Source: Rhodococcus sp. RD6.2
GTDB lineage: Bacteria > Actinomycetota > Actinomycetes > Mycobacteriales > Mycobacteriaceae
Length of the DNA: 64,000 nt
Direction: 5' to 3'
Assembly: GCF_001040705.1 (NCBI RefSeq)
Contig: NZ_CVQP01000002.1
Coordinates: 62,001-126,000, forward strand
Made by a program: the position numbers and the translations under genes. The notes beneath the pieces are model-generated. The model worked only from the letters and a program-made list of their open reading frames with translations, searched no databases and was not told the origin of the DNA. Shown here piece by piece: positions 3,167 to 49,725 of this stretch; positions within the stretch are counted from its first letter, which is position 1, and each line of letters begins with the position of its first letter.

Positions 3167-3196
3167 CCTGCGTTCGCCTCCCCTGAAGTCCGTATC

Positions 3197-3212
3197 GAGA
3201 CAGATCTGTCTC
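3197..3212. promoter_or_regulatory. perfect 16-bp palindrome, probable TetR operator
   Basis: GAGACAGATCTGTCTC reads identically on both strands and lies about 30 bp upstream of the SnoaL-like gene, whose operon ends in a TetR gene. The position, perfect symmetry and length fit an autoregulatory TetR operator. The assignment to that regulator is inference. Confidence 0.6.
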
Positions 3213-3239
3213 TATTTAGCATCGGGGAGGCAGGTCGTG

Positions 3240-4115
3240 TCAATGGGACGCGAAGGCGCGGCGACCGTGCGCGACGAGTTCGCGGACCGCCGGGCGCACC
3301 GCGTCCTTCCACACCAGGGCCAGCAGCGCGGGCGCCCCCGCGTCGTCGATCCTGCGGGCGACCAGATCGGGGTAGGCGGTGGCCATCGACTCGCTGAGGA
3401 TCGCCACCCCCAGTCCGCGCGCGGCGAGGTCGGCGATGGCGTCGGAAGCCCCGGCCTGCAATGCGATCCGTGGGGTGAGACCCGCTGTGGTACAAGCATT
3501 GTCGAAGACGGCGCGCAGGCCGGTTCCCGGCGGCATGCACACGACGGTGTCGGCGCACACGTCCCGCAGGCTGACCCGGCGTCGTCGGGTCAGGGGGTGA
3601 TCCGCGGGCGTGACGACGACCAGAGGCTCGCTGACGACGGTGATCGATTCGAGGTCCGTGGGGGGCGCCGCCGTGCCGATCAGTGCGAGGTCGACGGTGC
3701 CGTCGCGGACGGAGTCGAGCAGGCGGTCCGAGTTGTCCTCGAGCAGGCTGAGTTCCACGCCGGGGTGCGCACGATGGAACCCTGCGAGTGCATCGAACAG
3801 TGGGGTGACCGTGCATCCGACGACCATCCCGATGGTCAGTTCGCCGCGGATCAGATCGGTGACCTCGCCGACTGCCTGCGTGAGTGCCTCGGCCGACGCG
3901 AGCGCGGCACGGGCGTGGGCGAGTGCGGCCTTGCCTGCGACGGTCAGGGTCGCGGTGCGGGCGGAGCGGTCGAACAGTTCGGCGCCGAGTTCGCGTTCGA
4001 GCGAACGGATCTGAGCGCTGACCCCGGACTGGCTGATGTGCACCCGCTCGGCGGCGCGGGTGAAGTTTCGTTCCTCGGCGACCGCAACGAAGTACTCGAG
4101 CTGCCTCAGTTCCAT
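3240..4115 (-). CDS. LysR-family regulator
   Basis: A 291-residue LysR-type transcription factor. Residues 1-60 carry the winged helix (MELRQLEYFVAVAEERNFTR, AAERVHISQSGVSAQIRSLE). Residues about 90-285 are the periplasmic-binding-like effector domain (GELTIGMVVGCTV). It is divergent from the SnoaL-like gene at 4215. The 99-bp intergenic region contains short dyads (TTCTAGAA at 4125-4132, CTGATCAG at 4133-4140), the usual location of LysR sites. Divergent LysR genes normally activate the neighbour and repress themselves, so the 4215 gene is the expected target (family knowledge). Confidence 0.88.
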   Translation of the reverse strand: MELRQLEYFVAVAEERNFTRAAERVHISQSGVSAQIRSLERELGAELFDRSARTATLTVAGKAALAHARAALASAEALTQAVGEVTDLIRGELTIGMVVGCTVTPLFDALAGFHRAHPGVELSLLEDNSDRLLDSVRDGTVDLALIGTAAPPTDLESITVVSEPLVVVTPADHPLTRRRRVSLRDVCADTVVCMPPGTGLRAVFDNACTTAGLTPRIALQAGASDAIADLAARGLGVAILSESMATAYPDLVARRIDDAGAPALLALVWKDAVRPAVRELVAHGRRAFASH

Positions 4116-47767: not shown

Positions 47768-48583
47768 GTGCTCCTTGCGGTCGACGTCCGCAACACCACC
47801 ATCTCGCTCGGGGTGTTCACCGGATCAGGGGACAACGCTCGGCTGGAACAGGATTGGCGGATGCGCACCGATCCGCGGATGACGGCCGACGAGCTCGCCC
47901 TGCTGCTGCGCGGGTTGCTGGGGTCGCGGGTCGAGACGATCGTCGGCGTGTCGGCACTGTCGACGGTCCCGTCCGTGCTGCGCGAGCTTCGGGTGATGCT
48001 GAGCCGGTACTGGGATCACGTCCCGCATGTCGTCGTCGAACCCGGCGTCCGTACGGGTGTGCCGCTCCTCGTCGACAACCCCAAAGAGGTGGGTGCCGAC
48101 CGGATCGTGAACAGCCTTGCCGCGCATCATCTCTACGGTGGACCGTGCATCGTCGTCGACTTCGGTGTCGCGACGTGCGTCGACGTCGTGTCGGCGAAGG
48201 GGGAGTTCCTCGGGGGCGCGATCGCGCCGGGGCTGGAGACGTCCACCGACGCCCTCGCCTCCCATTCGGCCGCGCTGCGTCAGTTCGAACTGGTCCGACC
48301 ACGAGCGGTCGTGGGCAAGAACAGCGTCGAGTGCATGCAGTCGGGTGCGGTGTTCGGATTCGCCGGCCTGGTCGACGGATTGGTGCGCCGCGTGCGCGCC
48401 GAACTGCCCGCGTTCGCTGGGACGGACGTGACGGTGCTCGCGACGGGAGACAGCGCGCCGTTGGTGATGCCGGAGTCCGAGACCATTGCGCACCTCGAGC
48501 GTCACCTGGCGCTGGAGGGGCTGCGCATCGTCTACGAGCGCAACCAGGCCAGACGGGCCGCGAAACGCGCCCCCGTGGTGTGA
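47768..48583 (+). CDS. coaX: type III pantothenate kinase
   Basis: A 271-residue kinase of the ASKHA superfamily phosphorylating pantothenate, first committed step to CoA. The phosphate loop is [38 protein letters not shown] and [20 protein letters not shown] hold the catalytic Asp region, and [20 protein letters not shown] follows. It has a GTG start 3 bp after panD. It ends the pantothenate operon; the leaderless uORF of the cysteine dioxygenase operon starts 52 bp later. Confidence 0.96.
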
Positions 48584-48599
48584 GCTTGTCCCTGCACCC

Positions 48600-48628
48600 T
48601 TTGCCGATCCCGGATTCTGTGTCACACT
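48600..48628 (+). promoter_or_regulatory. probable promoter of the cysteine dioxygenase leader
   Basis: TTGCCG (48600-48605) and CACACT (48623-48628) are spaced 17 bp apart. They would start RNA at about 48636, exactly at the GTG of the Cys-Cys mini-ORF, giving a leaderless uORF as is common in actinomycetes. The -10 is a fair rather than a strong match. Confidence 0.5.
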
Positions 48629-48635
48629 TGTCGGC

Positions 48636-48677
48636 GTGATTGCTCGCATGGTTGCTCAGGAGTGTTGTCGAGGCTGA
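48636..48677 (+). CDS. Cys-Cys upstream mini-ORF (leader peptide)
   Basis: GTG at 48636 opens a 13-residue peptide MIARMVAQECCRG ending at TGA 48675-48677. It has two adjacent cysteine codons just before a run of mutually pairing RNA segments. Polycysteine mini-ORFs are known in mycobacteria to make downstream genes respond to cysteine. The next gene is cysteine dioxygenase, so the sensed amino acid and the enzyme's substrate match. Confidence 0.65.
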   Translation: MIARMVAQECCRG

Positions 48678-48719
48678 CTGCCGCCTCGATCTGTTCGAGG
48701 CATGTCCTTTGCCCTCGAA
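48668..48719 (+). promoter_or_regulatory. four-segment attenuator-like leader RNA
   Basis: Segment 1 TCGAGGC (48668-48674) pairs with segment 2 GCCTCGA (48683-48689). Segment 2 pairs equally well with segment 3 TCGAGGC (48695-48701). Segment 3, shifted by one base as TTCGAGG, pairs with segment 4 CCTCGAA (48713-48719). All are perfect 7-bp helices. Segment 1 begins at the last base of the second Cys codon of the mini-ORF. This is the 1:2, 2:3, 3:4 logic of amino-acid attenuators. No T-run follows, so control may act on translation. Confidence 0.65.
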
Positions 48720-48745
48720 CGATTCCACCTCCTGGAGCTGTTTCC

Positions 48746-49306
48746 ATGCTTTCCACACCTGTCTTTTCCGGGCCTCGTCCCGCGCGACCATCGGTGTCGC
48801 CCACCCGCCTCCGTCCCGCTGACCTGCTGCGTATCACCGATCAGGGTGCGCAGGACGTGCTCGACGGCCGTTTCGCCCACCTCATCCCCGGTGCGGACGA
48901 GTGGCCCGTCGCCGAGCGCTGGTCCTCCCGGTTGCACGCCGACGACGACGTCGACGTCTGGCTGATCAGCTGGGTTCCCGGCGAATCGACGGAACTGCAC
49001 GACCACGCAGGTTCCCTCGGTGCGCTCACCGTCCTCAGTGGAACGCTTGCCGAATACCGCTGGGGTGGAAGCGAACTCAAGTACCGCACGTTGGCCGCGG
49101 GCGACCAGGCGTCGTTCCCTCTCGGCTGGGTGCACGACGTCGTGCAGGCGCCCGACACCGAATCGGGTCCCGGTGCACCGACACTCAGCGTGCACGCGTA
49201 TTCGCCGCCGTTGACCGCGATGTCCTACTACGAGGTCACCGACCAGGGCAGCCTGCGTCGCACCCGCACCACACTGACCGATCTTCCGGAAGGGCTCTCG
49301 GCATGA
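48746..49306 (+). CDS. cysteine dioxygenase
   Basis: A 186-residue type I cysteine dioxygenase, a cupin that oxidises cysteine to cysteine sulfinate with Fe2+ and O2. It shows WLISWVPGESTELHDHAGSL with the HxH iron ligands, and GALTVLSGTLAEYRW. The third His is in FPLGWVHDVVQA. HAYSPPLTAMSYYEVTD is the C-terminal signature. ATG 48746 has GGAG 8 bases upstream. It is followed by an overlapping rhodanese gene and preceded by a Cys-Cys mini-ORF and attenuator. It lies between coaX and lysS, where mycobacteria have only a very short ORF. Confidence 0.92.
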   Translation: MLSTPVFSGPRPARPSVSPTRLRPADLLRITDQGAQDVLDGRFAHLIPGADEWPVAERWSSRLHADDDVDVWLISWVPGESTELHDHAGSLGALTVLSGTLAEYRWGGSELKYRTLAAGDQASFPLGWVHDVVQAPDTESGPGAPTLSVHAYSPPLTAMSYYEVTDQGSLRRTRTTLTDLPEGLSA

Positions 49307-49725
49307 CCATCGACGAAATGCTCGACGAGGCCCGGTCCCGCATCGACCGGATGTACGTGTTCGAGGTTGCCGACGCCGTTCGCCGTGGTGCCGTCTTCGT
49401 CGACATCAGGCCCCAGGCCCAGCGTGAACGCGAAGGCACCCTGCCCGGCGCGCTCGCGATCGAACGCAACGTCCTCGAATGGCGGACCGATCCGACCAGC
49501 AGCGCACACCTGGCCCTCGCCGTCGATCACGACGTCGAATGGGTGATCGTCTGCTCCGAGGGGTACACGTCGAGCCTTGCGGCGGCGTCGCTGCGTCAGC
49601 TCGGCCTGCACCGGGCGACCGACCTGGTCGGCGGCTACCAGGCGTTGCGGTCCGCCGGACTGCTCGGGGCGCTGATCGGGCAGACACACTGCACCCGCGA
49701 ACTGTCGACGGTCGCCGCACACTGA
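49303..49725 (+). CDS. rhodanese-like domain protein
   Basis: A 140-residue single rhodanese domain. The N-terminal strand is AVRRGAVFVDIRPQAQRERE, PGALAIERNVLEWRTD follows, and the active-site loop VIVCSEGYTSSLAAASLRQL has the catalytic Cys. It probably moves sulfane sulfur or handles persulfides arising from cysteine breakdown. Its ATG overlaps the cysteine dioxygenase stop, so the two are co-translated and share the Cys-responsive leader. Confidence 0.9.
   Translation: MTIDEMLDEARSRIDRMYVFEVADAVRRGAVFVDIRPQAQREREGTLPGALAIERNVLEWRTDPTSSAHLALAVDHDVEWVIVCSEGYTSSLAAASLRQLGLHRATDLVGGYQALRSAGLLGALIGQTHCTRELSTVAAH

Follow-up and report, generated by a model that had tools for sequence, protein, structure and literature searches.

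An upstream open reading frame (uORF) with two adjacent cysteine codons precedes a predicted thiol dioxygenase gene in Rhodococcus and is predicted to fold back on the ribosome-binding site (RBS) and start codon of that gene. From this arrangement, its conservation and fold modelling, we consider it probable that the leader is a cysteine-responsive translational attenuator that would be ON when cysteine is low. The element lies in a stretch of 64,000 nucleotides (the window), where coaX (type III pantothenate kinase, 47768-48583) is followed by the 13-codon uORF, a gene of the CDO_I family and a rhodanese gene. The source organism is near R. triatomae, and its dioxygenase is 91% identical to the counterpart at locus L002. 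Mycobacterial uORFs of the polycysteine class respond to cysteine. The leader and the two genes behind it are on the plus strand.

The uORF (48636-48677) encodes the putatively leaderless peptide VIARMVAQECCRG* and reads GTG ATT GCT CGC ATG GTT GCT CAG GAG TGT TGT CGA GGC TGA. Its putative sensor codons, the TGT TGT of Cys10 and Cys11, occupy 48663-48668. Upstream lies a candidate promoter (48601-48628) consisting of a -35-like TTGCCG (48601-48606), a 16-nt spacer and the -10 element CACACT (48623-48628), which is directly preceded by TGT and ends 7 nt 5' of the GTG. A strict sigma-70 scan made no call at this TTGCCG/CACACT promoter, and the -10 element with its 7-nt spacing to the uORF start was found again in nearly all of 98 relatives. 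We infer from this spacing that the transcript starts at the GTG of the uORF, i.e., that it is leaderless. The 13-codon GTG mini-ORF with two Cys codons and a -10 element 7 nt upstream, as described in an earlier note on this DNA, is thus confirmed from the sequence. The leader folds at -50.1 kcal/mol, compared with -35.3 +/- 3.8 for shuffled sequences (z = -3.9), and a search of 48500-48900 against Rfam 15 returned zero matches up to E = 1.

Upstream regions of orthologs were drawn from 80 named genomes and 61 relatives, giving 105 loci with at least 55% protein identity, about 10 of which were fetched twice. In 98 of these 105 loci, spanning Rhodococcus, Nocardia, Williamsia, Gordonia and Mycobacterium, the gene is preceded by a Cys-Cys uORF whose -10-like element stands at the spacing seen in the window. 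The Nocardiaceae uORFs mostly have 13 codons and end in ECCRG; elsewhere the ends read ECCRP or ECCRA (Mycobacterium) and MCCC or MCCR (Williamsia). The tandem Cys codons stay close to the uORF stop in the 98 loci (in the window CC is followed by R, G and the stop), and the pair is kept over the five genera even where the fold-back described below is lost, while the N-terminal codons of the uORF vary. Both codons are invariant as TGT in every row of the two Nocardiaceae alignments introduced below, whereas in genes of the window Cys is encoded by 13 TGC codons and a single TGT. Judged by this recurrence, the promoter-spaced Cys-Cys uORF is not a chance occurrence, and the class to which the earlier note had assigned it, a Cys-Cys uORF with a hairpin that starts at the second Cys codon, is conserved in relatives. 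The record of one locus, titled Kitasatospora arboriphila (L049), is nearly identical to the Williamsia muralis loci L050 and L051 and looks mislabelled.

The Nocardiaceae mRNA is predicted to fold, between uORF codon 4 and the start codon of the dioxygenase gene, into a single long interrupted hairpin comprising three helices, each of which appears in the minimum free energy (MFE) fold and shows covariation. P1, also seen in the pair table, joins the 5' arm GCATGG in codons 4-6 (48646-48651) to the 3' arm CCATGC (48744-48749), which includes the ATG start codon at 48746-48748; its consensus pairs GCATG(G/A) of the uORF with (C/T)CATGC of the start region. P2 is formed by GCTCAGGAG in codons 7-9 (48654-48662) and CTCCTGGAGC (48729-48738), the latter including the Shine-Dalgarno GGAG at 48734-48737, and has the consensus GCYCAGGAG opposite the Shine-Dalgarno region. 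P3 corresponds to the pairing of segments 1 and 2 (1:2) of the earlier note and consists of GTCGAGGC (48667-48674) and GCCTCGAT (48683-48690), with the consensus TCGAGGC opposite GCCTCGA or GCCTTGA and a compensatory change to CGGGGC/GCCCCG at locus L094.

For covariation analysis, we separated 32 distinct leaders lacking an extra hairpin (alignment A1) from 8 distinct leaders that carry it (A2). In A1, 92.6% of cells are paired, compared with 36-43% when the arms are slid against each other. Five pairs are changed on both sides, with 14 such cells against 2.7 in shuffled alignments, and the covariation score was reached by 0 of 500 shuffles; since P1-P3 sit in coding sequence from few lineages, part of this covariation reflects shared ancestry. 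Because relatedness inflates counts, we regard the double changes as better evidence than the percentages. The clearest case concerns uORF base 14 and the first base of the start codon, which form UA 18 times, UG 10 times and CG 3 times and are unpaired once among the 32 A1 leaders. The C-G pair is of the R. jostii/opacus/koreensis type (L024 and L029 in A1) and also occurs in L094: a change of the start codon from AUG to GUG is accompanied by a T-to-C change in the uORF. RNAalifold recovered P1 and P3 unprompted, and, on the group that includes the window, P1, P2, P3 and the pairing of segments 3 and 4 (3:4). The conserved Nocardiaceae element is therefore best described as a uORF fold-back on the RBS including the start codon, a reading that is well supported in silico.

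To gauge the consequence of this fold for translation, we calculated the energy needed to open the RBS from -14 to +5 relative to the start, with a ribosome represented by a mask that covers 15 nt on the 5' side and 16 nt on the 3' side of the P-site and, for the stalled state, with Cys10 in the A site. For the window RBS, the calculated cost is 14.2 kcal/mol when the leader is free of ribosomes, 6.9 when one is stalled at Cys10 and 9.8 when one is at the stop; shuffled sequences give 8.1 +/- 2.0. Across 38 Nocardiaceae-type leaders, the corresponding means are 14.9, 7.3 and 8.4 kcal/mol, with 9.0 for shuffled sequences and a mean z of 3.6. As the energies of the stalled leaders lie near those of shuffled sequences, a stalled ribosome would return the RBS to the unstructured level. 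The fold model thus predicts an RBS hidden by leader RNA and opened by a ribosome stalled at Cys codons, a feature of the known class, and expression is predicted to be ON when cysteine is low. The earlier note had expected the opposite sign of control, which the drop from 14.2 to 6.9 kcal/mol on masking at the Cys codons does not support.

These energies have to be read with the behaviour of the model in mind. The mean unpaired probability of the Shine-Dalgarno, our initial measure, showed no increase when the ribosome was stalled (0.31 to 0.27); we replaced it by the opening energy after seeing this result, since that probability is dominated by weak local pairing once the structure is open, and only the opening energy shows the effect. 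The leaders of nirA and cysA2 from the same genome, used as positive controls, gave no clear opening at their Cys codons in the fold model, which failed to reproduce their regulation. In the window, placing a ribosome on nearly any of uORF codons 4-13 is enough to open the RBS; the Cys codons have no special standing in this respect, and cysteine would therefore have to act through dwell time. When uORFs and RBSs were swapped between leaders, cognate pairs required 15.9 kcal/mol and non-cognate pairs 13.8, and foreign uORFs often lock too because the pairing core is shared.

We propose the following sequence of events. While the uORF is free of ribosomes, P1-P3 would lock the RBS. With plentiful Cys-tRNA, ribosomes would clear the uORF fast and the lock would re-form; with scarce Cys-tRNA, a ribosome would halt at Cys10 or Cys11, cover all three 5' arms and free the RBS, allowing synthesis of the thiol dioxygenase and of the rhodanese, the translation of which overlaps with it. 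An operon that is ON at low cysteine would therefore belong with nirA-cysH and cysA2. Other polycysteine leaderless uORFs occur in the same genome, at L145 (minus strand, 3182-3271) before nirA-cysH-cysDN and at L146 (minus strand, 1223-1309) before a DUF4395-like/cysA2 operon, both operons being assimilatory. A genome-wide pattern search for further Cys uORFs proved too unspecific to be of use.

The downstream gene (48746-49306) encodes a cupin of the cysteine/ergothioneine dioxygenase superfamily that matches Pfam CDO_I with 39.7 bits (cut-off 23). Its predicted Fe ligands H85, H87 and H130 and the residues S148, H150 and Y152 are kept in relatives, and R58 and R62 are invariant in 13 relatives near the position of the carboxylate-binding Arg60, where the alignment is ambiguous. 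The CDO_I match, the HxH...H ligands and the SHY motif are common to ergothioneine dioxygenases as well and hence not specific to cysteine dioxygenases. By both sequence and fold, the nearest solved structures are those of the ergothioneine dioxygenase from Thermocatellispora tengchongensis (8QFL-8QFR), with Z 18.0 and 31% identity for an AlphaFold2 model of pLDDT 82.8; the B. subtilis cysteine dioxygenase follows with Z 14.7 and 21%, and the mammalian enzymes with about 13 and 17%. We rejected a direct assignment as ergothioneine dioxygenase, since true orthologs of that enzyme (60-70% identity to 8QFL) form a paralog group of their own without a rhodanese, and one genome (G032) carries both kinds. 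The ortholog loci L150, L153 and L155 adjoin an amidohydrolase-like gene, and L153 and L155 also a histidine-ammonia-lyase-like gene, neighbourhoods that are possible ergothioneine-degradation clusters; several loci of this ortholog group come from genomes without egtD. By sequence and fold, the window enzyme has ergothioneine dioxygenase and not one of the cysteine dioxygenases as its closest relative, although it belongs to a separate subfamily that is paired with a rhodanese. This placement speaks against the premise of the earlier note that the target destroys cysteine, and the paradox of a cysteine sensor that switches on a cysteine-destroying enzyme at low cysteine would be a product of annotation.

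The partner gene (49303-49725) overlaps the dioxygenase gene by ATGA and encodes a rhodanese-like protein (Pfam Rhodanese) with the catalytic Cys84. It follows the dioxygenase gene in 104 of 105 loci, and its catalytic Cys is retained at all loci that have both genes. A covariance model of the leader found matches in 20 of the 61 relatives. In five of these (L179 in G031, L178 in G018, L177 in G023, L175 in G035 and L174 in G019), the leader lies directly before a rhodanese-like gene at the coaX-lysS locus and the dioxygenase is missing; in three of the five (L177, L178 and L179), the catalytic Cys of the rhodanese is replaced by Ser. A weak leader match in G028 (L176, 911-1006; E 0.012) precedes a dioxygenase-like gene without metal ligands, with the rhodanese Cys kept. 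Catalytic residues are otherwise intact where both genes are present (112 loci). The two enzymes therefore seem mutually dependent, and the leader outlives them, with degenerate genes retained behind it.

The switch originally envisaged for this leader differs from the one proposed here. Read from the sequence, the four segments of the earlier note are TCGAGGC (segment 1, 48668-48674), whose first base is the third base of the second Cys codon; GCCTCGA (segment 2, 48683-48689); TCGAGGC (segment 3, 48695-48701; TTCGAGG at 48694-48700 in the 3:4 register); and CCTCGAA (segment 4, 48713-48719). As had been stated, all three pairings (1:2, 2:3 and 3:4) are perfect over 7 bp. In a four-segment attenuator of reversed sign, low cysteine would stall the ribosome and the 2:3 pairing would stop expression, whereas high cysteine would favour 3:4 and expression would continue, which would suit a cysteine-destroying target. 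The 2:3 hairpin with the weak T-rich stretch that trails it is the sole terminator-like match in the region (1 against 0.2 expected), and 2:3 and 3:4 are both retained within the subgroup of 8 A2 leaders, where 3:4 is maintained partly via G-U changes. Only pairing 1:2, however, is general. The extra 3:4 hairpin (TTCGAGG/CCTCGAA, 48694-48719) is absent from the 32 A1 leaders, so that, of about 40 distinct leaders from Nocardiaceae, no more than 8 have segments 3 and 4, and it is a lineage-specific insert found only in the R. triatomae group and in some Nocardia. Its arms look like a second copy of the P3 arms; because of this resemblance, 2:3 complementarity is automatic and its conservation uninformative, and among the 8 leaders with the insert 2:3 shows zero double changes. 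We also rejected 2:3 as a terminator, as it is a single weak match in the window and its T tract is missing in L002 and L004, the nearest relatives with the insert. Neither hallmark of a trp-type attenuator was found: a 3:4 terminator with a U tract is not conserved, 3:4 being missing from 32 of 40 leaders and followed by no T tract in the window, and an alternative 2:3 pairing is confined to the 8 insert leaders. With 3:4 limited to these leaders and terminator features weak or unconserved, the conserved core would work without segments 3 and 4, and the sequestering helices P1 and P2 predict the other sign, which together make the four-segment switch highly improbable.

Three further explanations were weighed. 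If the enzyme were a true cysteine dioxygenase, as the Pfam call CDO_I would have it, overflow control could raise its synthesis at high cysteine through reinitiation after completion of the uORF, and a ribosome at the stop does partly open the RBS (9.8 versus 14.2 kcal/mol). Stalling at Cys opens it more (6.9 kcal/mol), 68 nt with intervening hairpins separate the uORF stop from the start codon, and both sequence and fold are nearer ergothioneine dioxygenase; we regard this explanation as unlikely. A general switch, in which any active translation of the uORF would hold the RBS open with only a minor part for the Cys codons, would fit the opening by a ribosome at almost any of codons 4-13. 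It is very unlikely given that the Cys-Cys pair persists over five genera, also without the fold-back, while N-terminal codons vary, that TGT is fixed against genome preference and that other leaders of this genome are polycysteine too. A read-out by Rho, or transcription-translation uncoupling, would have the same sign as the attenuator: at high cysteine, release of the ribosome at the uORF stop would expose the leader to termination, from which a stalled ribosome would protect it. Such a mechanism has been proposed for mycobacterial cys leaders (PMC1262725) and would account for the retention of the uORF in Mycobacterium, where the RBS fold-back is missing. In 27 Mycobacterium leaders the RBS is no more hidden than in shuffled sequences (7.4 versus 7.7 kcal/mol, z -0.2) and the uORF is equally conserved; in Williamsia and Gordonia the fold-back is weak despite the conserved Cys uORF. 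RNAalifold on the mycobacterial alignment A4 found a small hairpin around the Cys codons (columns 38-43 with 57-62) with a C-G/G-C swap (7 + 7 sequences), which suggests a structure different from that in Nocardiaceae. A mini-ORF without conserved pairing, which the earlier note would have counted against the attenuator, is therefore found in Mycobacterium as regards RBS sequestration and not in Nocardiaceae. Rho-dependent termination is one candidate for the mycobacterial read-out. For the window leader, which is only 110 nt long, it would leave unexplained the helices that target and covary with the Shine-Dalgarno and start codon, and we consider it unlikely.

Returning to the cysteine-responsive translational attenuator, the most speculative step concerns the substrate. 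The sulfite that the enzyme pair may free for cysteine synthesis would come from some organic thiol, perhaps ergothioneine, and not from free cysteine, and sulfur salvage from another thiol would fit the ON-at-low-cysteine sign. The co-occurrence of egtD with a close ortholog of the dioxygenase (23 of 24 genomes, versus 24 of 37 genomes without one; counts that ignore kinship) is suggestive. Taken as a whole, the picture of a uORF that serves both as sensor and as an antisense lock co-evolving with the AUG/GUG start, and that governs salvage of sulfur from ergothioneine or another thiol under cysteine starvation, is offered tentatively. Should the prediction of the sign hold, this would argue for a sulfur-salvage role of an enzyme that is widely annotated as "cysteine dioxygenase", and if the salvage reading is true, actinobacterial enzymes carrying this annotation have another job. 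The co-evolution of lock and start codon is open to testing at the level of single bases.

In the model for mycobacteria reportedly put forward by Canestrari et al. 2020 (Mol Microbiol 114:93-108), whose work covers six loci of M. smegmatis, the RBS is concealed by RNA unless a stalled ribosome blocks that RNA. Translation attenuation of mycobacterial polycysteine-uORF genes is summarised in PMC13236596, and Cys-uORF operons in mycobacteria are also assimilatory (PMC4633059, Shell et al. 2015). The window leader resembles these attenuators in its GTG/ATG uORF at the inferred transcript end, consecutive Cys codons near the stop, a sulfur gene downstream and the predicted sign of control. It differs in that its uORF is very short with only two Cys codons, is itself predicted to pair with the Shine-Dalgarno and start codon, and precedes a thiol dioxygenase-rhodanese pair instead of an assimilation gene. 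Cysteine-responsive ribosome attenuation would thereby extend from mycobacterial assimilation genes to a thiol dioxygenase-rhodanese operon across Mycobacteriales.

Other described systems share single features with this locus. The actinobacterial candidates of Seliverstov et al. 2005 (PMC1262725) likewise combine a short ORF, a run of Cys codons near its stop and a cysteine-related gene downstream, but precede cys/cbs genes, had no conserved hairpin and were proposed to act through Rho, whereas the window leader has a covarying, predicted RBS-sequestering structure. The uORFC-8-2 motif before cysS in Rhodobacterales (PMC8632094) also has tandem Cys codons in a uORF and adjacent stems; unlike the window leader, it has an intrinsic terminator and a tRNA synthetase target and belongs to another bacterial class. 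On the enzyme side, the window protein shares its fold, the HxH...H ligands and the SxHAYSPP motif with the ergothioneine dioxygenase of 8QFL-8QFR, from which it is set apart by the identity of about 31% and by its rhodanese partner, which true orthologs of 8QFL lack. By comparison with these systems, we regard the leader as a well-conserved variant of the mycobacterial-type cysteine switch and not as a new type of switch; what appears to be new is the lock, the small size and the target.
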